Shown: positions 1,759-29,703, counted from the stretch's first letter. The stretch: DNA of 36,765 bases from Mariprofundaceae bacterium (GCA_030950925.1 JAUZQO010000059.1:1-36765); one strand, 5' to 3'. Numbers and translations: made by a program. Notes: generated by a model not told the origin, from the letters alone.

Positions 1759-1972
1759 GGTCATCATCGTCGTCATCTTTTTTCATCGCATAACGCCAGT
1801 AAAGTATCACTGCTAAAATCATGGGAGCAAAAACCAGACCAAATAGGAATACGAAAATGGCCCACGGTGTTTCAATATTTACATGCATATAGCGATAACT
1901 ATCGACGGCTGATGCAGGGATTGCCCAACATAAACTCACCAAAGTTAATGTGATTTTAGATAGTATATTCAT
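1751..1972 (-). CDS. Small single-pass membrane protein with acidic tail
   Basis: A 73-residue protein. It has a signal peptide ending in PASA, a short periplasmic stretch, one transmembrane segment (WAIFVFLFGLVFAPMILAVILYW), and a cytoplasmic tail of lysines followed by six aspartates and HA. Family unknown. The start overlaps the stop of the FGE-fold gene as ATGA (4 bases), so the two are probably translationally coupled. The acidic tail resembles a metal- or protein-binding tail, but that is speculation. Confidence 0.75.
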   Translation of the reverse strand: MNILSKITLTLVSLCWAIPASAVDSYRYMHVNIETPWAIFVFLFGLVFAPMILAVILYWRYAMKKDDDDDDHA

Positions 1973-3006
1973 GGTTGAACCTCATGGGGTGGCTTACTTG
2001 ATGCACAGCGGAAACCATAAAAATCAGATGCCATATTGGGCAAAGAATAATTACGATGATAGACTACTGTTGAAAAAGGATCCCCCTTCCAAGAGCCGCC
2101 GCGCATCACACGTTTTACAATGCCTTCGACACTTTCTTGTCCAACACCTTTAAATTGATCTTGAACAGGTGACAGCTTGGTGTGCAGTGTGCCATCAGGA
2201 TATTTGGATAAGGCATTGAATGTCCATTCAGAAACATTGCCTGACATATCCATCACACCATAGGCACTGGCGCCATGTTCATACTTTGTTACAGGTGTGG
2301 TATGTCCAATTTGATAATAGGTATTTAAACGGCTGACATCCATTTTATCACCCCAAGGCCAACGTCGCGCATCCGTGCCTCGTGCTGCCTTTTCCCATTC
2401 GGCTTCATCGGGTAAACGTTTGCCTACCCAGGCACAGTAATCACGGGCATTGTACCAAGAGACGAGGGTAACGGGGTGGTCATTGAGACCTTTAGGAATT
2501 TCTCCATCGCTCCAGTTTAGGGGGGGGCGATAGTGTTTGGATATAACAAATTTCGCATATTGCGCTTGTGTCACGGGGTATTTATCGATCCAAAATTTTG
2601 GTACATCAACGGTATGTTTTGGTTTATCTTCATGGTTGGCACGCGATGCATCAGTACCCATGCTGAAATCACCAGCAGGAACCTCGATGACACTTGCAAG
2701 CTCATGCCATATTTCGGGTGCAAGCAGTGCCTTGACAGATGATGCGGTATAAAAGATATGTTCATCCACGCGGGCTTCGTTTTTAGCTTGAATAAGGATG
2801 TCTTCACCCGCCGCACGCACATGTTGACTGATGTCGGTCGGATCGTAACTGATTTTTGCGCGCATCTCATCCATACGCATGGAGCCAAGTTCCATGACAT
2901 GAATAGAGCCACCAATCATGGCACCTGCAATACAGGTTAAAAACACTGCCATGGCAATTTTTTTACGACGTTTAAGTTCTTTTTTTGAGATCGGTTGACG
3001 AGCCAT
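1969..3006 (-). CDS. Membrane-anchored FGE/SUMF1-fold protein, probably lacking the catalytic cysteines
   Basis: 345 residues. One N-terminal transmembrane anchor (about 14-36) follows a very basic KKELKRRKK start, so the domain faces the periplasm. A formylglycine-generating-enzyme/SUMF1 fold covers about residues 100-340: GDFSMGTDASRANHEDKPKH, FWIDKYPVTQAQYAKF, HPVTLVSWYNARDYCAWVGK, RLPDEAEWEKAARG, GVMDMSGNVSEWT, RVMRGGSW, YGFRCASS. The copper-binding cysteine pair of true FGE, expected between GGSW and GFRC, is absent (GGSWKGDPFSTVVYHRNY). It is therefore more likely a structural or binding subunit than a formylglycine synthase. Its place between a four-helix membrane protein and small membrane proteins in a cytochrome operon supports a respiratory accessory role. 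Confidence 0.85.
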   Translation of the reverse strand: MARQPISKKELKRRKKIAMAVFLTCIAGAMIGGSIHVMELGSMRMDEMRAKISYDPTDISQHVRAAGEDILIQAKNEARVDEHIFYTASSVKALLAPEIWHELASVIEVPAGDFSMGTDASRANHEDKPKHTVDVPKFWIDKYPVTQAQYAKFVISKHYRPPLNWSDGEIPKGLNDHPVTLVSWYNARDYCAWVGKRLPDEAEWEKAARGTDARRWPWGDKMDVSRLNTYYQIGHTTPVTKYEHGASAYGVMDMSGNVSEWTFNALSKYPDGTLHTKLSPVQDQFKGVGQESVEGIVKRVMRGGSWKGDPFSTVVYHRNYSLPNMASDFYGFRCASSKPPHEVQP

Positions 3007-4809: not shown

Positions 4810-5526
4810 GTGAGTCAAAAAGTTCAACGTAATGCATCTTGCCCATGTGGTAGCGGTCAAAAATATAAGAAGTGTTGTATGCTTAAAGCGAAAGATGAAA
4901 GCAATCGGCGTTATGATCATCGTGAAGCTGTGCAGCAAGCTTTGGTGTGGTTAAACCAAACCTATCGCCCTCAGATTGATCAATGGGTTGAGCAGGCTTG
5001 GTTCACGACGATGTCGGATGTCGAACGCCAAGGCATTGCGACTGCTGACCCCCAAATTCGTGCGATTCATGATGTGAATGTGTTGGAGCTTTTGCTGGCA
5101 GAGGGCGGATTGTCGGATATAGATAGTGTAGGTAGTGAAACAACGCCGCTTCAATTGGTGTTGGCGCAAGCGTCGCTTGGTTTGAATGCGCCACAACGGG
5201 CATACCTTGAGCAGTTGTCTCAACGTCCGCTGCGTCTTTATCGTGTGATCACATCGACTGAGGGTCAAAGTTTTGAGGTTGAAGATGTTTTGACGCAAGA
5301 AGGTTTTGAAGTCCCCGATGAGATGGGAAGTCGAATGTTTGATATGGGTGATGTTGTTGCATTGCGCATGATGGATACTGGAGGTGTTTGGGAAACATCG
5401 GGCGCTATTTACCATATTCCAAGTGATTATCAGGACGAATTGATTCAGTTGTTGCAAGGTGTGGATGGATCTTTAAGTTCAACGGTTGCAAGATTTTGGC
5501 TGAAATTGGTGGCTGCTCATGTCTAA
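4810..5526 (+). CDS. SEC-C zinc-motif protein
   Basis: 238 residues from a GTG start. The SEC-C metal-binding motif is at the very N-terminus: QRNASCPCGSGQKYKKCC, with ligands C-x-C…C-C. The remainder (about 200 residues, partly leucine-rich with several acidic stretches) is not a family I recognise. SEC-C motifs bind zinc and often sit on ribosome- or SecB-interacting proteins. The GTG is chosen because GGGGAG lies 6 bases upstream and because SEC-C proteins usually begin just before the motif; an in-frame ATG at 4768 lies inside the likely -10 box. It overlaps the next gene by 8 bases. Confidence 0.85.
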   Translation: MSQKVQRNASCPCGSGQKYKKCCMLKAKDESNRRYDHREAVQQALVWLNQTYRPQIDQWVEQAWFTTMSDVERQGIATADPQIRAIHDVNVLELLLAEGGLSDIDSVGSETTPLQLVLAQASLGLNAPQRAYLEQLSQRPLRLYRVITSTEGQSFEVEDVLTQEGFEVPDEMGSRMFDMGDVVALRMMDTGGVWETSGAIYHIPSDYQDELIQLLQGVDGSLSSTVARFWLKLVAAHV

Positions 5527-7201
5527 ACAGCTATCAAGTAATGCCCAGCGAAAAGTTGATGCTTTGGTGGGTCAAATGCATCAGGCATTTCAACAACAAA
5601 ATTGGGAACTGTGTGGGCAGCTTTGTGTACAAATTGAAGCTTGGGAACCCAGTAATCCGGAAACTGCCAATGTGCGAGGTATCGTTGCGATGCAGTCGGG
5701 TGATGCGCAAGGGGCGGAACATTATTTTGTTGCCGCAGTGAATGTAGAACCTGAAAATACTGGGTTTCAATTAAATTTGGGTAAATTTTATTTGCAACAA
5801 GGCTTGGCGCAAGATGCACTGCTTCGTTTTCAAGCTGCAAAACAATTGAATCTAAATGATATAACTGCATCGCTGGGCGAAGCTGAATGCTTGTTATTAC
5901 TCAATAAAGAGTACCAAGCTTATGATATTTTTAAAGATCTTTATGAATCTTATCCTCAATCAAATGAAATAAGTATTGGGCTGTTTCGTGCGGCCTTTCG
6001 ATTAAACCTACTAGAGGAGTCAGAGGAATATTTGCAAGCCGTTCTTGTTCGTCAGCCTGATAATGTTGAGGCACATTTGGGGTTGGTGCAGCTTGCTCTA
6101 CAGCAAGGTGATTTTGTAACAGCTGAGTCAGAGGCATTACGTTGTATTGCATTAAACCCTCAGTTGGATTTGGCATACCCCATGTTGGCGAGTGTTAAAA
6201 CCTTCTCGCACGACGATGATGTTTTGATTAAGAAGCTGCAAAAATACCGTCAAGGCACAGTCAAAGATTCGCCTTCTTATATGCACTTAAGTTTTACCTT
6301 GGGTAAAATCATGGAGGATTTAGGAGAATATCCGAGTGCTTTTGAATACATAGAAAAAGCCAATGATATTCGCTATCAGAATCTTTCTTATGATAATGAA
6401 GCAGAAGTTGCTCATTTGCAGGCTATCGTTGATTTAACCGCTGAACATCACATGCAGTGTACCAGTGGTATTGAAGATGACACAGCTATTTTTATTGTGG
6501 GTATGCCGCGTTGTGGCTCAACACTTGTGGAGCAAATTTTAGCATCCCACCCAAGTGTTGAAAGTGTGGGTGAGTGTAACTTTTTTGAAGCCGCAGTGGC
6601 CGAGTTAAGTGATCCCAAAGACCCTCTAACACTGGAGAAAATGCAGGATTTTTCTTCAGAACAATGGCAAGAACTTGGCTCACTTTATATGCAAAAAGTG
6701 CGAGATATGCATGGCGATGCTCGTTATGTGGTGGATAAAACGCTCACCAACACTCGTTTTGTCGGTGCTATTCATCAGGCATTACCGCATACAAAAGTGA
6801 TACATGTGAAGCGAGATGCTTTGGATACATGTTGGTCGATTTATAAAAATAATTTGCTCAGCCCTGTTTACGCCTATGGGTTTCACCTTGGGCAACTGGG
6901 TTATTATTATCGTGCGTATAAGCACTTGATGAAACACTGGGCTAATATCTTACCGGAAGGTGTGATGTATGAACTTCATTATGAAGAAATGGTGCAACAC
7001 CAAGAGATTGAGACGTTAAAATTATTGAGTGCATGTCATTTGGAATCGGATGATGCGTGCTTTCAATTTCAAAAATCTAAGAATATTACGATAACAGCAA
7101 GTCAAGCTCAGGTACGGAAACCGATGTATGCCAGTTCTATGGGTGCGGCAGATCCATATAAAGAAAACTTACAGGTTTTGACTGATATTTTGGCGCGTTA
7201 A
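5519..7201 (+). CDS. TPR-repeat sulfotransferase
   Basis: 560 residues in two parts. Residues about 1-300 are tetratricopeptide-like helical repeats (for example NVRGIVAMQSGDAQGAEHYF, FQLNLGKFYLQQGLAQDALL, AHLGLVQLALQQGDFVTAES). Residues about 320-560 are a PAPS-type sulfotransferase domain. The 5'-phosphosulfate loop is IVGMPRCGSTLVEQIL and the 3'-phosphate region is VIHVKRDALDTCWSIYKNNL. TPR-sulfotransferase fusions are common in Proteobacteria and are thought to sulfate proteins or glycans; the acceptor here is unknown. There is no signal peptide, so it is cytosolic. The 8-base overlap with the SEC-C gene implies translational coupling. Confidence 0.88.
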   Translation: MSKQLSSNAQRKVDALVGQMHQAFQQQNWELCGQLCVQIEAWEPSNPETANVRGIVAMQSGDAQGAEHYFVAAVNVEPENTGFQLNLGKFYLQQGLAQDALLRFQAAKQLNLNDITASLGEAECLLLLNKEYQAYDIFKDLYESYPQSNEISIGLFRAAFRLNLLEESEEYLQAVLVRQPDNVEAHLGLVQLALQQGDFVTAESEALRCIALNPQLDLAYPMLASVKTFSHDDDVLIKKLQKYRQGTVKDSPSYMHLSFTLGKIMEDLGEYPSAFEYIEKANDIRYQNLSYDNEAEVAHLQAIVDLTAEHHMQCTSGIEDDTAIFIVGMPRCGSTLVEQILASHPSVESVGECNFFEAAVAELSDPKDPLTLEKMQDFSSEQWQELGSLYMQKVRDMHGDARYVVDKTLTNTRFVGAIHQALPHTKVIHVKRDALDTCWSIYKNNLLSPVYAYGFHLGQLGYYYRAYKHLMKHWANILPEGVMYELHYEEMVQHQEIETLKLLSACHLESDDACFQFQKSKNITITASQAQVRKPMYASSMGAADPYKENLQVLTDILAR

Positions 7202-23611: not shown

Positions 23612-24295
23612 ATGTTTGATGCTAATGTTTTAGACATATACTTAAGGGAAATAGGTGTGAAAACACCTGTTTCCCTTCTTTTTTGTGCGCCTGATATAGA
23701 TATAGAAGCTAGCATTGAAAATACTGGGAACCATGATGTGGCGACAGCAACAGATTTGAAAGCATTGAAACAACAAGCTTTGGCTTGTGAACAATGTGAT
23801 TTATCATCAACTGGGTCTAAAGTTATATTTGGTTCAGGTGATGAGCATGCGGATATACTGTGTATTGGCGATGTTCCACATGCTGTAGATGATGCTAAAG
23901 ATCATGTTTTCACAGGTGATTCAGGTATATTGTTGGATAATATGTTGAAAGCGATCGGTTTGCAGCGGGAACAGGTGTATGTCAGCCATATTATTCAATG
24001 CCCCACCCCAGATCATCGTGATCCGAGTGTGGATGAGTGGGAGGCATGTCAATCATGGTTGCAACAAAAAATAAGTTTGATGCAACCCAAAGTGATTCTT
24101 TTAATGGGGCGGGTTGCAGCCCAAACTGTTCTTCAATGTGACGATGCTTTGCATGATTTGCGTGGGCAATGGCATCGCTATCAAGATGTACCTGTTCGCG
24201 TGATCTATCACCCTGCCTATCTTTTGCGATCACCGCGTCAAAAAGGTGAAATGTGGAAGGACTTACAATTAATCGTTCAATCAATATCGGTATAA
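23612..24295 (+). CDS. Divergent family-4 uracil-DNA glycosylase (Fe-S type)
   Basis: 227 residues of the UDG superfamily, family 4-like. The four iron-sulfur ligands are in the expected places: C59 and C62 (CEQC), C130 and C146. Motif A is unusual: IGDVPHAVDD replaces the usual GEAPGxxED, and VSHIIQC replaces the TNxVKC segment. The later active-site motif VIYHPAYLLR (H200-P-A) is conserved. It may be an active variant or a member with changed base preference. The first 50 residues are an unrelated N-terminal region common in this family. Its 3' end overlaps the convergent 24277 gene by 19 bases. Confidence 0.85.
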   Translation: MFDANVLDIYLREIGVKTPVSLLFCAPDIDIEASIENTGNHDVATATDLKALKQQALACEQCDLSSTGSKVIFGSGDEHADILCIGDVPHAVDDAKDHVFTGDSGILLDNMLKAIGLQREQVYVSHIIQCPTPDHRDPSVDEWEACQSWLQQKISLMQPKVILLMGRVAAQTVLQCDDALHDLRGQWHRYQDVPVRVIYHPAYLLRSPRQKGEMWKDLQLIVQSISV

Positions 24296-24801
24296 ATGGC
24301 GACACCTGTCGTAGGGTTATCATAAAGTTTTAGCCATACGTTAAAGCTGTCACTTGGATCGGATAACATTTTACGTGGAAGCAGAGCTTGTTTTCTTATG
24401 GTTCCTGTGGCGGTTGCAGTGAGGCGATCACAGATGCCGCTGATGGAGAAAAAAGCAGAATCTGCATCAGATTCATCATTAAAAATGAATCGGCAATCCA
24501 AGCCGCCACTGGCAAGTTCACCATTTCTGGTCATGTGCATCACATCAACCTGAAGGTTGATAACATCGCGATCTTTGAGTGCAGATGTGTGTGATGCTAA
24601 AATGACATGGGTGTCTTTTTGCATGCCGCTAATTACTTGCCCCAATTGACCATTGATAATGGATTCATATTTGAATCCAGCAGTGTTTGCTTGAAATGCA
24701 ATAATATTTATGCTGTGTTTTACTTCACTGGCTTGGCTGCTGATACATGAAAAACTGAGAAGTATGCTAGCAGCAAGGTATTGTATATATGTTTTTAACA
24801 T
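24277..24801 (-). CDS. Secreted protein of unknown function
   Basis: 174 residues with a clear signal peptide (YIQYLAASILLSFSCISSQAS). The mature part of about 148 residues looks beta-rich, with alternating polar and hydrophobic stretches (KHSINIIAFQANTAGFKYES, DRDVINLQVDVMHMTRNGE) and two cysteines (LDCRF, GICDR). No family recognised. AAAGGA lies upstream of the ATG. It follows the small secreted gene 24815-25096 by 13 bases and runs in the same direction as the HprK/PqqD/radical-SAM genes upstream. It could be part of that system, or only a neighbour. Confidence 0.75.
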   Translation of the reverse strand: MLKTYIQYLAASILLSFSCISSQASEVKHSINIIAFQANTAGFKYESIINGQLGQVISGMQKDTHVILASHTSALKDRDVINLQVDVMHMTRNGELASGGLDCRFIFNDESDADSAFFSISGICDRLTATATGTIRKQALLPRKMLSDPSDSFNVWLKLYDNPTTGVAIYTDID

Positions 24802-24814
24802 GGGGTATTATCCT

Positions 24815-25096
24815 TTAAATATGTGTGATTAATAATAAAATTTGGGTTCGAGTGGTTGTGATTTCTAATAAAAGTGTTTGATATACCAAGCGAGCATCGA
24901 CATGTGGCAAGCCTGCTTCTTCTAAAAAACGAATGTTTTTTAAGTTGTACAGACGCTCACGCAATGCTGCTGACATCACTGTGAGAAGCAGCATGTGATC
25001 TTCTGCTTGGGTATGTTTTGATATGTTTTTTTCAGTGGCCATGCCGATATTGGGTGTCATCAGACATAGAAATATAAAGACGATGGGTTTAAACAT
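24815..25096 (-). CDS. Small secreted protein of unknown function
   Basis: 93 residues with a signal peptide (MFKPIVFIFLCLMTPNIGMA-TEK). The mature portion (about 73 residues) is mostly helical, with leucine-rich stretches (HMLLLTVMSAALRERLYNLKNIRFLEEAGLP and RLVYQTLLLEITTTRTQILLL), and contains no cysteine. GGAGGT sits 4 bases before the ATG. It lies 128 bases after the HprK-related kinase gene and 13 bases before the next secreted gene. No family recognised. Confidence 0.7.
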   Translation of the reverse strand: MFKPIVFIFLCLMTPNIGMATEKNISKHTQAEDHMLLLTVMSAALRERLYNLKNIRFLEEAGLPHVDARLVYQTLLLEITTTRTQILLLITHI

Positions 25097-25224
25097 GCTA
25101 CCTCCGAGTGCTTCATTGAATCAATGCGCAGACAGTAGGTTTCTTTTATGGCTTCATTATGACATGCAGTATATTGGATCAATGTATACTGAAAATCACG
25201 ATATAGATTTCGGGAGGTGACGAT

Positions 25225-26106
25225 TTAACTATCGTTTTTAAACGATGTCGCATAAGCAGTGAGCTGTTCCCATGCAGCATGGACATCGGAAAAAACAAGT
25301 TGAAATGCTTGAATATTTTCGGGGATACGCTGGTTGAGTAATTGGATGCGTTCCGATGGCAAGATGTTGTGATGAAAGTGCTGCGCAAGTTGCATCAGGG
25401 CTGCACTGCGTCGAAGTGGTGAAAGTTGAGATGGTGGAGAAGATGCATCAAAGCGAGGGAAAACAAGGTGTGTGAGTGGCAAATTCTGATGTTGGACATG
25501 TGTGGGAAGCCAGAGTTGCAGTTGGGTGTCCATGCCTTTAAAATCAGGGAAGGTAAAAAATTCACGCTCAAAACAAGCACTTTTCAACATCATCTGATGT
25601 GGAAATGCTGGGTGTTCAGGTTCATCCCACTGCATGGGACGCGGCATGGGGCTAATATTTCCATTTTCTGTCAATAAACTGAATTCATCGGTCATATATT
25701 GGCAGTCATTGAGAAGGGCTGCAGTGGTCATACTGCTTTTTCCTGCCCCTGATTGTCCTGCAAACATCCAAGCTTCACCTTCTTTGGCAATACAACCAGC
25801 ATGAAGGGATAAAAATTGAGGGTATATGTGTTGAATGATTTGAGTGTAAAGTTGAATTTCAAAGGCCGCTACTGTTTCAGGGGCGCTGTTGCCTTGCCAC
25901 AGTTCGTGTTGTCCATTTAAAATGAGATATTGTTGCTGACCATTGCTTAAAAAATCAAAGCTGATGTCGGTAGCGTTTTGAACACTCTCATAAAGTCTGA
26001 CAAATGGTTCGATGTATGCCGCATAGGTGCGGTGACGGGCTGTGATGCTTATATTTTGATTGGCAATGCGGAAGTGGCGCAGCCAGTCCTTAGATGACGG
26101 CATCAT
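25225..26106 (-). CDS. HprK-related P-loop kinase of a PqqD/radical-SAM system
   Basis: 293 residues. The centre has HPr-kinase-like features: FLSLHAGCIAKEGEAWMFAG, then the Walker A GQSGAGKSS (117-125), then CQYMTDEFSLL, where the Asp follows the HprK pattern. The N-terminal part (1-95) and C-terminal part (170-293) are not those of true HprK, which phosphorylates HPr of the sugar phosphotransferase system. This is the divergent group found next to PqqD-like proteins (the HprK-related kinase A type, from memory). The substrate is unknown; a peptide or its carrier is the natural guess. Its ATGATG start overlaps the PqqD-like stop by 4 bases. Confidence 0.85.
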   Translation of the reverse strand: MMPSSKDWLRHFRIANQNISITARHRTYAAYIEPFVRLYESVQNATDISFDFLSNGQQQYLILNGQHELWQGNSAPETVAAFEIQLYTQIIQHIYPQFLSLHAGCIAKEGEAWMFAGQSGAGKSSMTTAALLNDCQYMTDEFSLLTENGNISPMPRPMQWDEPEHPAFPHQMMLKSACFEREFFTFPDFKGMDTQLQLWLPTHVQHQNLPLTHLVFPRFDASSPPSQLSPLRRSAALMQLAQHFHHNILPSERIQLLNQRIPENIQAFQLVFSDVHAAWEQLTAYATSFKNDS

Positions 26107-26390
26107 CCAGCGTTCTTTAACAATCCAAATATAGCAAATTCTTCTAAAATTGAGACGACATCATTGTGAACAATGTCTGGCTCGGCATCGAGTGCTTCAC
26201 AAATGATTTGAACCATATCTTGCTGCGAATGTTCACCATCGCATGCTTCTAAAATACTTGTGGCAATGAGGTTTAATGAAAGACTGGAGCCATCGGCATT
26301 ATTGGTCACCATCACTTCTTGAGTGTTGTCTAAATCTTCAAAGACCAAGGTATCGCGACGGATTGGGTAGTCGGGTAAGGCTTGGCTCAT
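26103..26390 (-). CDS. PqqD-like peptide carrier
   Basis: 95 residues. It fits the PqqD/RRE pattern of three beta strands followed by three helices: YPIRRDTLVFEDLDNTQEVMV, LNLIATSILEACDGEHSQQDMV, and DVVSILEEFAIFGLL. PqqD-type proteins bind a precursor peptide and hand it to a radical SAM enzyme. The start at 26390 has CAGGAGA 7 bases upstream, which makes a 53-base overlap with the radical SAM gene credible. It is a separate small protein, not fused to the enzyme as in many RiPP systems. The system is not PQQ synthesis, since no PqqA, PqqB or PqqC is here. Confidence 0.88.
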   Translation of the reverse strand: MSQALPDYPIRRDTLVFEDLDNTQEVMVTNNADGSSLSLNLIATSILEACDGEHSQQDMVQIICEALDAEPDIVHNDVVSILEEFAIFGLLKNAG

Positions 26391-27519
26391 GGTTTGTCTC
26401 CTGATGTATGGGGGGTGCTAGCAAGCATGCAATCATCTGACAATCCGAGCAGCTTAATTGCTCTTGGCAAGTTTGCCAGCGTGCTTCTGTGATTTGGGAA
26501 GCATCGCGATAACGCAAGTTCATACATATCTGTGGTAAACTTTGTTCACGAATATTGCCCAAACGTAGTTTGCGTGAAAAAATACAGGGGTAGACATCGC
26601 CATTGCTAGCGATACATAGTTTGCCCCGTCTCGATTCGCCTTGAGCGATGGCATGGGATGATTGAATGTTGATGTGTTCGGGTAAAAAAGTCGTGCTACC
26701 TCGCCCGACTGTATTGACGGGGTCAAAACGAATGTGTGCGGGTGAAAGCCCAAAATTTGTTTCTAAAAAATGCGGAAGTTCGGCAATATATTCTGCATTT
26801 TCTTGCATAATGACCACACCCACACGCACCTCAAAGCCTTGCTCTATAGCGCGTTGCATAGCGGCTAAAGTACGCTTCCAGCTACCTTTTACACGGGTGA
26901 TGGTATCATGTATTTCAGCACAATCAGCATAAACCGAAAAAGATAGTTGGGGTTGATAGGGTTGGAGTTGTGCCAGTAATTTATCGGTGAGCAATAAACC
27001 ATTGGTGTAAATTTCAATGCCTTGGAAATCGAGTTGGTGGGTTGCCTGAACCAGACGAATCAAATCACGATGAATGAGCGGGTCACCACCTGTAAATTGG
27101 ATGAAAGGGCGACCAAGTTCGCGAATCTGTTGTAAGCTAAGGTGGATCTCGTCAAAGCTTAAAAACTCTTGGCGTTCAGGCGATGATTCGGCATAGCAAT
27201 GTAAGCAACGCTCATTGCATTGAGATGTTAATTCGATAAAGACCATGCCCAGACTTTCACCCAACAAAAGATCTGAAGCGGGGAGGGGCGCAAGCTTGGC
27301 ATGGGATAAACCTTCAAGAGCGGGGTGCGCGCGTTCTATTTGTTGCAGGTGGGGGATATTGGCTTGGGTGGTTTGAAGTGATATAATAGCTTCGGCAAAA
27401 ATACCTGAAAAATACAAGGGTTTCGTATGTTGGATATGGTGAAGTGTGAGTTCTTGTGGGCTTGAGTAAGAACAGTAAACCACCTTCCCTTGTTGAAGGG
27501 TAAGTGTGAAATCATTCAT
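26338..27519 (-). CDS. Radical SAM/SPASM peptide-modifying enzyme
   Basis: 393 residues. The radical SAM cluster motif is C101-x3-C105-x2-C108 (SQCNERCLHCYAE). The SAM-binding GGDP is in QFTGGDPLIH (about 141-150). A SPASM/Twitch region holds C302 and C312 (GKLCIASNGDVYPC), then C351, C357, C360 and C365 (TCQEQLSCSDCQMIAC), enough for two auxiliary [4Fe-4S] clusters. Relatives with PqqD partners (PqqE, AlbA, sactionine and ranthipeptide enzymes) form C-C or thioether crosslinks in ribosomal peptides. The first 85 residues are an extra domain of unknown type. It starts 8 bases after the Cys-rich peptide gene. Confidence 0.9.
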   Translation of the reverse strand: MNDFTLTLQQGKVVYCSYSSPQELTLHHIQHTKPLYFSGIFAEAIISLQTTQANIPHLQQIERAHPALEGLSHAKLAPLPASDLLLGESLGMVFIELTSQCNERCLHCYAESSPERQEFLSFDEIHLSLQQIRELGRPFIQFTGGDPLIHRDLIRLVQATHQLDFQGIEIYTNGLLLTDKLLAQLQPYQPQLSFSVYADCAEIHDTITRVKGSWKRTLAAMQRAIEQGFEVRVGVVIMQENAEYIAELPHFLETNFGLSPAHIRFDPVNTVGRGSTTFLPEHINIQSSHAIAQGESRRGKLCIASNGDVYPCIFSRKLRLGNIREQSLPQICMNLRYRDASQITEARWQTCQEQLSCSDCQMIACLLAPPIHQETNHEPSLTRLPNPSRYLGL

Positions 27520-27527
27520 GGATAGGC

Positions 27528-27992
27528 TTATTTACAAACGTTTTCGTTCTGTTTTACGCTAAATGTGCATTTGCAAGGTTTCTTGCAACCTGGAGGAGGG
27601 ATGCAACCTGGAGGACCATCCTGACAGAATTTTTTACATTTAAAATTGCCAATGCCACCTGCTGTGGCACAAGCGGCCGCATTACCTGCACAAGATTTAA
27701 TACATCGTGTTTTGGCACATTTTGCAGCCCTAAATTTTTTAGCGTTTGGAATGCACGGACAACAGGCATTGGCACCCGATGAAATGGTAATGCTGACGGG
27801 TGCGACAGGTGCTCCAGCAGCATTGGGGTTCATTTTGCATGTTTGAGCCTGTCCCCAAGCTCCCAAAGCATGCCGAGGCCCGATCATCATGGTTCCCAAA
27901 ATTGCGGGAGGTGTGTAAACTGCCGCAGCCAATAATCGTCGACGAATACTTTGTTGTGGGTTTAATGTGGGTTTGGTTTCTTCTTCGTTCAT
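27528..27992 (-). CDS. Cys-rich secreted peptide, probable substrate of the radical SAM system
   Basis: 154 residues from the ATG at 27992. The leader (1-50) is MNEEETKPTLNPQQS, then RRR-LL and a hydrophobic stretch AAAVYTPPAILGTMM, which resembles a Tat signal. The rest (51-154) holds 15 cysteines: 52, 77, 78, 80, 92, 97, 101, 108, 119, 123, 130, 136, 140, 142 and 153. It is also rich in K, P and G (GANACCPCIPNAKK, DGPPGCIPPPGCKKPCKC). No known peptide family recognised. It is first in the operon and sits 8 bases before the radical SAM gene, the normal place for a precursor. A frame opening 12 codons earlier (28028) lacks a better ribosome site. Confidence 0.8.
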   Translation of the reverse strand: MNEEETKPTLNPQQSIRRRLLAAAVYTPPAILGTMMIGPRHALGAWGQAQTCKMNPNAAGAPVAPVSITISSGANACCPCIPNAKKFRAAKCAKTRCIKSCAGNAAACATAGGIGNFKCKKFCQDGPPGCIPPPGCKKPCKCTFSVKQNENVCK

Positions 27993-28035
27993 AATCAATA
28001 ACCTACCATCTGGACTACTGCTAAGCATAGTACCG

Positions 28036-28053
28036 TTTGCTTAATACAGCAAA
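28036..28053. promoter_or_regulatory. Palindrome in the divergent promoter region of the peptide system
   Basis: TTTGCT (28036-28041) and AGCAAA (28048-28053) form a perfect inverted repeat around a six-base AT-rich spacer. It is central in the 80-base gap between the divergent peptide and nucleotidyltransferase genes. It may be a regulator site controlling both arms. No confident promoter boxes were assigned. Confidence 0.35.
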
Positions 28054-28072
28054 TTATGGTTAAATTTTTGGC

Positions 28073-29185
28073 ATGAAAATATCCCAGCAAAAACAATTTC
28101 GTCAGTTTTATTGTCAGATGTTGCGGGGCGAGTGGGAAGGGATCTTGCCGCAAGATTTAAACTTTTGGTACATGCTTCGTTCAGAAGGCATCTTTTTCTG
28201 TGTATGGCAAAAATTTTCCTCCACACAACGTCAACAAATTCCTGTAGAAATCATGGCTGGCATGGATGAGCGTATGCATGAAGCATCGGCATTGCGTATG
28301 AAACATAGCCTAGGTCATATTTTACGCGAATTGAACGCTGCACAAATCCCTGTGATTTGTATGCGTGGTCAAGCCATGGCAGAAGCATTGTATGAACCAT
28401 CCAGCATGCGTGTGTTTACAGATTTTGACTTGTTGTATGATGAAAAAGATTCGTTGATGTTGAAGCAGGTTCTGGGTACACGCTTGATGTATGCGCCGCC
28501 TGAAAAATTTCCTTCGATGTTTAAAAAAGGTGATTTGGTCATTGACTTGCATATGGATCCTTTGGGCATTGAGCGTATTCAATCGTGGGCGCATTTAACA
28601 CCCTTGCGCGCGCCTGATTTCTTTAAATATGCATCAGAAGGCATGTTGGCGGGTGAAAAAGCTTTGCATGTACATCCCCGAGTCAATCTGCCGTATTTGT
28701 GTTTTCATGCGATGAAACATTCGTTTGATCGTTTAATTTGGCTTTATGACATCGCTTTGCTGGCAGAAAGCATGGAAGCCGAAGGCTGGGATGACGTGTT
28801 ACAGGGCATTCGCGAATACAAATTGGAACGCCCTTGTTTTTATGCATTGTCTTATGTGCATAAGCACTTGAATGCTTCTGTTCCTGATGCTGTATTGAAT
28901 GAAATTTGCCCCGATATGGGGTGGATTGAGCGGCGTTTGTTTGCACGACACATGAAATTTGAGGTGATCCCATATCTGGCAGAACGTTTGTTTGCGCGTA
29001 TGCAGCCTGATTTGCAACACCGTTTGGCTTTTTGGAAAGAAACGATTTATCCAAGTGCTGAGGTTCGGGCGCAAATTGCGGGGGGTGGCTGCGTGAAATG
29101 TAGTTTTATACGTACACGTATCAAGCAAATATCGCGTGCGACTATGTTATTTTTGCGTGAAACTTTTTTATTGATTCGGAGTTGA
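28073..29185 (+). CDS. Uncharacterised nucleotidyltransferase family protein
   Basis: 370 residues, like the 'uncharacterised nucleotidyltransferase' family (Pfam NTP_transf_5 type). The core is IPVICMRGQAMAEALYEPSSMRVFTDFDLLYDEKD at about 96-130, where RG-x-A-x-x-x-x-LY and the D-x-D of FTDFDLL match the family's GxALA…LY…DxDLL pattern. The later LPYLCFHAMKHSFDRLIWLYDIALL is the conserved helical His/Trp/Asp region. It probably transfers a nucleotide to a small molecule or peptide. This family is often found beside PqqD and HprK-related kinases. It is divergent from the peptide operon and 23 bases before the cytochrome lipoprotein start. Its final 40 residues are basic and may touch the membrane. 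Confidence 0.85.
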   Translation: MKISQQKQFRQFYCQMLRGEWEGILPQDLNFWYMLRSEGIFFCVWQKFSSTQRQQIPVEIMAGMDERMHEASALRMKHSLGHILRELNAAQIPVICMRGQAMAEALYEPSSMRVFTDFDLLYDEKDSLMLKQVLGTRLMYAPPEKFPSMFKKGDLVIDLHMDPLGIERIQSWAHLTPLRAPDFFKYASEGMLAGEKALHVHPRVNLPYLCFHAMKHSFDRLIWLYDIALLAESMEAEGWDDVLQGIREYKLERPCFYALSYVHKHLNASVPDAVLNEICPDMGWIERRLFARHMKFEVIPYLAERLFARMQPDLQHRLAFWKETIYPSAEVRAQIAGGGCVKCSFIRTRIKQISRATMLFLRETFLLIRS

Positions 29186-29208
29186 AGATGCGAGTGAAAG
29201 GAAATGAT

Positions 29209-29703
29209 ATGTTAAAGTATGCTGGTGTAGTATCGGGTGTCATGTTGTTGGCAGCTTGCCAAGGCAATGAACCTCAACAAGCGACAACAACAGCATTGGC
29301 TGCGGTTTCACCTGCCGCCGTGAGTACGCAAGATGTACGAAAAACGGATGGGGGTAAACTCAAACCTGCGGATATGAACGTTGAAAAAACCACCGCTATG
29401 ATTGGCGATTTAGCATCCCCGATGCAGGCAGATGTGAAGCATGGTAAAAAGCTGGTGAGGCAGCGTTGCTCGATGTGTCATTACTTGGATAAAGCACAGC
29501 GTAAGGTGGGACCAAGCTTGCAAGGTGTTTATGGTCGCGCCCCGAGCATTGATGGTATTCCTTTTGCTACTTGGAATGAGACAGCTCTGAATCAATGGCT
29601 GACCAATCCCAAAGCAGTCAAGCCCAAGACTCGCATGGGATTTCCAGGGTTTAAGAAAGAGCAAGATCGTTTGGATGTGATTGCTTATTTGAAAACACGT
29701 TAA
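29209..29703 (+). CDS. Lipoprotein monohaem cytochrome c
   Basis: 164 residues. The lipoprotein signal MLKYAGVVSGVMLLAAC puts the lipidated Cys at position 17, followed by an A/T/Q-rich linker of about 55 residues. The class I cytochrome c domain has CSMCH at 87-91, VGPSLQGVYGR, and a probable axial Met143 in TRMGFPG. It would be membrane-anchored in the periplasm. The start at 29209 is chosen for AAAGGAAA before it and for the normal lipoprotein signal; the longer TTG frame from 29182 overlaps the nucleotidyltransferase stop. Co-direction with the nucleotidyltransferase suggests the peptide system has a redox partner, which is an inference. Confidence 0.9.
   Translation: MLKYAGVVSGVMLLAACQGNEPQQATTTALAAVSPAAVSTQDVRKTDGGKLKPADMNVEKTTAMIGDLASPMQADVKHGKKLVRQRCSMCHYLDKAQRKVGPSLQGVYGRAPSIDGIPFATWNETALNQWLTNPKAVKPKTRMGFPGFKKEQDRLDVIAYLKTR

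Follow-up and report, generated by a model that had tools for sequence, protein, structure and literature searches.

The combination of a kinase, a nucleotidyltransferase and a RiPP recognition element (RRE; RiPP, ribosomally synthesized and post-translationally modified peptide) is known from two groups of peptides, the lasso peptides and the linear polyphosphorylated peptides (LPPs; PMC13381572, 2026). The leaders of lasso, PQQ (pyrroloquinoline quinone) and LPP precursors bind their RREs by the motif [Y/W]xxPx[L/V/I]; a crystal structure shows LppB bound to YxxP, with D70 of LppB hydrogen-bonded to the leader Tyr, and both the leader Tyr and Pro are needed (PMC13381572). Kinases that tailor lasso peptides depend on four residues, His-Lys-Asp-Asp, and the phosphorylated Ser receives hexoses from PsmN, whose annotation is nucleotidyltransferase (PMC9266682). 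The LPP kinase places several phosphates on a Ser close to where the core begins (PMC13381572). The subject of this report is a five-gene cassette in a 36,765-nucleotide stretch of DNA from a Mariprofundaceae bacterium (GCA_030950925.1, JAUZQO010000059.1:1-36765; hereafter the window), in which such a trio stands together with a radical S-adenosylmethionine (SAM) enzyme and a secreted peptide. The cassette probably encodes a RiPP-type pathway, kin to lasso and LPP logic, that is built round the radical SAM enzyme and in which the leader doubles as an export signal.

The source genome (1.97 Mb, 97% complete) has its relatives in the Mariprofundaceae, class Zetaproteobacteria, which are deep-sea iron oxidizers. 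The initial annotation, made from the window sequence, had described a 15-Cys peptide with radical SAM/SPASM, PqqD and kinase genes, a divergent nucleotidyltransferase and a cytochrome c, and every one of these genes was confirmed. The five that form the cassette, in window coordinates, are:

27528-27992, minus strand: precursor peptide, 154 amino acids with 15 Cys; leader RRxLLxxxxYxxPx(L/I)xG and Cys-rich core with ACCPC

26338-27519, minus strand: radical SAM/SPASM peptide maturase; Pfam scores of 80.5 (radical SAM) and 42.1 (SPASM) bits

26103-26390, minus strand: PqqD-like protein, putative stand-alone RRE; PqqD match of 36 bits

25225-26106, minus strand: HprK/PEPCK-fold kinase (HprK-related); TIGR04352 match of 66 bits, under the 200-bit cut-off

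28073-29185, plus strand: NTP_transf_5 (PF14907) nucleotidyltransferase; 103 bits, divergent from the peptide gene

An 8-base gap separates the peptide gene from the radical SAM gene, the radical SAM and PqqD genes overlap by 53 bases, and the PqqD and kinase genes overlap by 4. The peptide open reading frame (ORF) is open up to 28028 (27528-28028, minus strand), and the start common to relatives is at 27992. Compared with a 95%-identical homologue in genome G010, the peptide shows a nonsynonymous divergence (dN) of 0.023 against a synonymous divergence (dS) of 0.23, arguing that it is a real gene.

Homologues were sought in 78 Zetaproteobacteria genomes with a peptide profile and a radical SAM profile, both of which give scores well separated from background. 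The two genes were found in the identical 37 of the 78 genomes and were both missing from the same 41 (Fisher p 4e-23, kinship ignored). The finding that would have spoken against the initial annotation was a peptide that is widespread without the radical SAM and PqqD genes; the count of 37/37 against 0/41 came out in its favor. In nearly all complete loci the NTP_transf_5 gene is divergent from a peptide–radical SAM–PqqD–kinase series, and the genes outside this set vary between genera. Because the flanks change while the order stays, the set behaves as a unit: the peptide, radical SAM/SPASM, PqqD, HprK-like kinase and NTP_transf_5 genes are the cassette, which 37 of the 78 genomes carry. The cassette is found in none of the genomes of the large genus g11. 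Among about 320 genomes sampled from other Pseudomonadota no convincing peptide was found, and four matches with E values of 0.004–0.009 were taken as chance.

Some genomes depart from the usual arrangement. On G031:C1 the cassette is split over two loci about 20 kb apart (L101 and L102); one has the peptide, radical SAM, PqqD and kinase genes without the nucleotidyltransferase, and the second combines a nucleotidyltransferase gene with peptide and PqqD genes. Genome G017 (G017:C76; L209 1685-2855) carries a decayed cassette, consisting of a leader fragment and a broken NTP_transf_5 gene, which adjoins intact cytochrome c and pilin genes. Beyond the class, G098:C78 (L203) has two neighboring radical SAM genes, one of which scores 189 bits to the cassette radical SAM family; no peptide, PqqD or kinase gene lies beside it on this 4.1 kb contig.

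The cassette also occurs in a second phylum. A radical SAM search of GTDB contigs found two Myxococcota loci, and a sample of 379 Myxococcota genomes yielded five more. The radical SAM proteins of these cassettes score 300–420 bits, compared to at most 110 bits for other radical SAM proteins in the two genomes tested. All seven loci (7/7) keep the radical SAM–PqqD–kinase order, preceded by a short ORF that carries the cassette leader (as read from the DNA for G774), and NTP_transf_5 is present in 5/7 within the stretch retrieved. The same gene order, proposed earlier as a check, is found in different genera, in three families and in the Myxococcota. Because the peptide is a real gene and the order recurs so widely, the gene set is beyond chance.

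The leader is a constant part of the peptide. All of the peptides examined (39/39) match RRx(L/F)L followed, after 3–5 residues, by YxxPx(hydrophobic), and a scan of 3108 ORFs in the loci with this pattern matched only these peptides. Positions R17, R18, L20, L21, Y26 and P29 are invariant in a 34-row alignment. The leader resembles a twin-arginine signal in its RRxLLK motif, its hydrophobic stretch and, often, an AxA site; an RRxLLK/RRxFLK-type motif is present in all of the peptides, the curated models for twin-arginine translocation (Tat) score under cut-off, and the genome of the window encodes TatC. Tyr-x-x-Pro, on the other hand, is not a feature of Tat signals. The leader appears to be a twin-arginine-type signal that also holds YxxPx(L/I/V), the motif that docks lasso, PQQ and LPP leaders on their RREs.

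The likely partner of this motif is the PqqD-like protein. When its profile was compared with solved structures, the lasso RRE TbiB1 came first (E 7e-11), and the next matches were PQQ proteins, TfuB1 and LppB (3e-6). The invariant D77 aligns with D70 of TbiB1, at the Tyr-binding position, and the pattern D70-x3-F74-x3-M78 of LppB fits the cassette protein as well (our own comparison from published residue numbers). From this resemblance, the cassette PqqD is a putative RRE that should bind the YxxP of the leader.

The cores are as variable as the leader is constant, with Cys counts that range from 2 to 17. In the Myxococcota all 36 core Cys (36/36) are in Cys-x-Pro, with up to nine units per peptide and five in the short G536-type precursor, mostly starting SCxP; these cores are tiny, unlike the 15-Cys core of the window peptide, though the cassette and leader are shared. 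Three core types are found in the Zetaproteobacteria: SCxPSACxPC followed by charged or Gly-rich tails, SCAPCFCAPCG, and a domain of 13–17 Cys with S…ACCPC, to which the window peptide belongs. The 15-Cys type requires one change on the radical SAM tree, compared to a mean of 13.6 when shuffled; its clade joins the same-genus G011 and G012 with G077 of another family, so core type tracks the enzyme and not the host, with the caveat that L096 is long-branched and this placement is unsure. At six loci (L100, L105, L106, L114, L119 and L124) precursor genes stand in tandem, sharing a leader and differing in their cores; tandem copies from one genome have 77-87% identity across 30 residues of the leader and 33-59% across the aligned core. 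An encoded precursor with a constant leader and a variable core thus stands beside tailoring enzymes, as in RiPP pathways. The initial annotation regarded a Cys-rich substrate as characteristic, which is correct for the window peptide with its 15 Cys. What stays constant across the peptides is the leader together with a Cys-x-Pro motif; "Cys-rich" is the core type of one clade and does not define the set.

The radical SAM proteins all have CxxxCxxC, along with Cys 302 or 304 (in most), 312, 351, 357 and 360. This auxiliary set suffices for one auxiliary cluster, as is characteristic of radical SAM/SPASM maturases. In the structural model (mean predicted local distance difference test, pLDDT, 84.8) the N-terminus forms a strand-rich stretch and three helices, resembling an RRE, and among solved structures the model comes closest to the RiPP maturases SkfB, SuiB and CteB. 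A thioether would be a first guess at the product, given the likeness to SkfB and CteB.

The modeled structure of the kinase (pLDDT 95) matches the PEPCK/HprK superfamily. H102, K123 and D140 are invariant, position 141 is Glu or Asp, and the three invariant residues agree with the His-Lys-Asp-Asp residues of the lasso kinases. Most short cores have a Ser directly before the first Cys, and this Ser is the candidate phosphorylation site. Sequence searches of the PDB with the kinase and the nucleotidyltransferase found no relative. A sixth gene, encoding an ATP-grasp enzyme, adjoins the kinase gene in many loci and was at first thought to be a mere flank; in the genome of the window it is unlinked (G000:C29:18482–19612; L208 4468-5634). 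It is present in 23 genomes of the class, 22 of them with the cassette (in the 23rd, G015, the contig ends inside the kinase gene), and in 0/40 cassette-free genomes (p 4e-10, kinship ignored). Because it is confined to cassette genomes, it was retained as an accessory gene.

Together, these data support the earlier proposal that the radical SAM enzyme, the RRE-type PqqD, the kinase and the nucleotidyltransferase all serve one peptide, and they suggest how such a pathway might run. The leader would carry a twin-arginine-type export signal (RRxLLK...AxA) and YxxPx(L/I/V), which the PqqD protein would hold as an RRE. With the motif on the RRE, the radical SAM/SPASM enzyme would modify the Cys-x-Pro core, the HprK-like kinase would phosphorylate the core Ser near the first Cys, and NTP_transf_5 and, in many genomes, the unlinked ATP-grasp enzyme could modify the peptide further. 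Once released from the RRE, the signal would be available to the export machinery and to the general signal peptidase, which would account for the lack of a peptidase or transporter in the cassette. Of this scheme, the gene set, the leader motif, the conserved active-site residues and the co-occurrence are read from the sequences, whereas the binding, the order of steps, the chemistry and the gating of export are inferred. It can be proposed, though only tentatively, that the RRE masks the export signal until radical SAM and phospho-type modification of the Cys-x-Pro core has ended, coupling modification to secretion without a dedicated peptidase or transporter.

Such a pathway would be unreported, combining radical SAM chemistry with the kinase and nucleotidyltransferase tailoring seen in lasso peptides and LPPs, and a search of the available literature library for this gene set found no paper. 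To our knowledge, hardly any natural products have been described from the host bacteria. If the export signal is also the tag by which the enzymes dock, modification would be coupled to secretion in a simple way, and the Cys-x-Pro cores would provide a small, defined substrate for learning the function of this radical SAM subfamily and of NTP_transf_5.

Several points weigh against this reading. The thioether guess comes from fold resemblance alone, and SuiB and EpeE, with other chemistry, are also nearby folds. A Cys-rich domain of about 110 residues is large and unusual as a RiPP core. With regard to export, the window peptide falls short of the TAT_signal_seq model, and a peptide from the Myxococcota gives only a weak match to it (14.5 bits compared to the cut-off of 16.7); because the scores are below threshold, export could instead be by Sec. 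Finally, the LPP NTP transferase had no detectable activity in a heterologous host (PMC13381572).

Other explanations can account for parts of the evidence. The 15-Cys clade has a large, conserved core, two genera have a lipoprotein cytochrome c gene next to NTP_transf_5, and the Zetaproteobacteria are an iron-oxidizing class, so one might propose that the peptide is an exported Cys-rich surface redox protein, stabilized by modification, that handles metal or electrons with the cytochrome c in iron or hydrogen oxidation, rather than a peptide of the small-molecule kind. This seems unlikely: the large genus g11 wholly lacks the cassette, the Myxococcota cassettes have tiny cores, and the cytochrome persists beside a decayed cassette. 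It is more doubtful still that the locus belongs to the LPP family itself, as a Gram-negative representative in which the radical SAM gene is an optional extra. The common YxxP leader, RRE, HprK-like kinase, NTP transferase, hypervariable core and tandem precursors would all fit, but the radical SAM gene, a constant of this cassette, is no core gene of the LPPs, there is neither a SipW-like peptidase nor an MsbA-like pump, and the leader has a twin-arginine motif in place of HQxIxFET.

The conserved RRxLLK, hydrophobic stretch and AxA site, along with the presence of TatC, would also be expected if the leader served solely as a Tat signal and the PqqD-like protein solely as a chaperone for Tat proofreading, with the other enzymes acting elsewhere. 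Tat signals need no Tyr-x-x-Pro, however, yet it is invariant in 39/39 peptides; moreover, the peptide gene and the radical SAM gene always occur together and core type tracks the radical SAM tree, making this model very improbable. A PqqD protein, a radical SAM/SPASM enzyme and a short peptide are also the common core of the PQQ and mycofactocin pathways, and the family matches of the cassette would allow a small peptide-derived redox cofactor made in that fashion. We consider this the least probable of the alternatives: no residues of the cofactor type, like Glu-Tyr in PqqA, stand at a fixed position, core length and content vary widely and precursors occur in tandem, the leader bears an export signal, and the peptidases of such pathways are missing. 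A RiPP-type pathway built round the radical SAM enzyme is the reading that we prefer.

The remaining features near the cassette are:

29182-29703, plus strand: lipoprotein cytochrome c; adjoins the cassette in two genera, not a member

24277-24801 and 24815-25096, minus strand: two secreted ORFs of 174 and 93 amino acids; found only in the closest relative, outside the cassette

27993-28072: short divergent intergenic region between the peptide and nucleotidyltransferase genes; no above-chance promoter signal

The range first annotated, 24277-29703, includes the cassette and also takes in the two non-cassette ORFs and the cytochrome gene. The ORFs at 24277–25096 were rejected as part of the cassette, being confined to the closest relative. 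The cytochrome, to which the initial annotation had connected the exported peptide, was likewise rejected as a member: it is linked in two genera only and outlives the cassette in G017, where it is intact beside the decayed genes, and so it is regarded as a mere neighbor. An MFS transporter gene lies beside the kinase gene in 12 loci and was rejected as cassette-specific because it occurs in 62/78 genomes of the class. Promoter and terminator scans gave signals no better than in shuffles, and an Rfam search of the window found no match. Elsewhere, the window also has a TPR-sulfotransferase gene (5519-7201) and an FGE-type sulfatase-modifying-factor gene (1969-3006).

The closest described systems can now be compared directly. 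The earlier statement that no characterized product of such a set was known holds for the full set, while the kinase, NTP transferase and RRE trio had been described (PMC13381572). The LPPs of Bacillota share with the cassette the YxxPx(V/L/I) leader, stand-alone RRE, HprK-like kinase and NTP transferase, as well as variable C-termini and several precursors per cluster (PMC13381572). The cassette differs in its constant radical SAM/SPASM gene, twin-arginine-type leader and Cys-x-Pro cores, and no conserved neighbor in the class loci resembles the SipW-like signal peptidase or MsbA-like transporter that are LPP core genes. Lasso peptides of the paeninodin/pseudomycoidin type have an RRE leader motif, an HprK-like kinase with His-Lys-Asp-Asp and a nucleotidyltransferase (PMC9266682); the cassette differs in having a radical SAM enzyme and long Cys-bearing cores, and neither the asparagine-synthetase-like macrolactam cyclase nor the B2 leader protease of lasso clusters is among its conserved genes. 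Because these defining genes were sought and are missing, the cassette is neither an LPP nor a lasso cluster.

Three further systems are more distant. The HPr-rel-A system (NCBIfam TIGR04352/TIGR04353) also pairs an HprK-related kinase with a PqqD-like protein, but the cassette kinase reaches 66 of 200 bits, a TIGR04353 search with the window PqqD found no match, and the radical SAM enzyme and peptide are extra. The GeoRSP and SynChlorMet cassettes likewise have a PqqD-like protein and one or more radical SAM/SPASM proteins, and the kinase weakly matches ScmC; the matches are far under the curated cut-offs, and the precursor is another. The nearest folds to the radical SAM enzyme, SkfB, CteB and SuiB, have the same N-terminal RRE-like domain followed by the radical SAM and auxiliary cluster domains. 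Identity to these maturases is about 14-19%, and the cassette adds to that plan a separate PqqD, a kinase, an NTP transferase and a substrate with a secretion signal.

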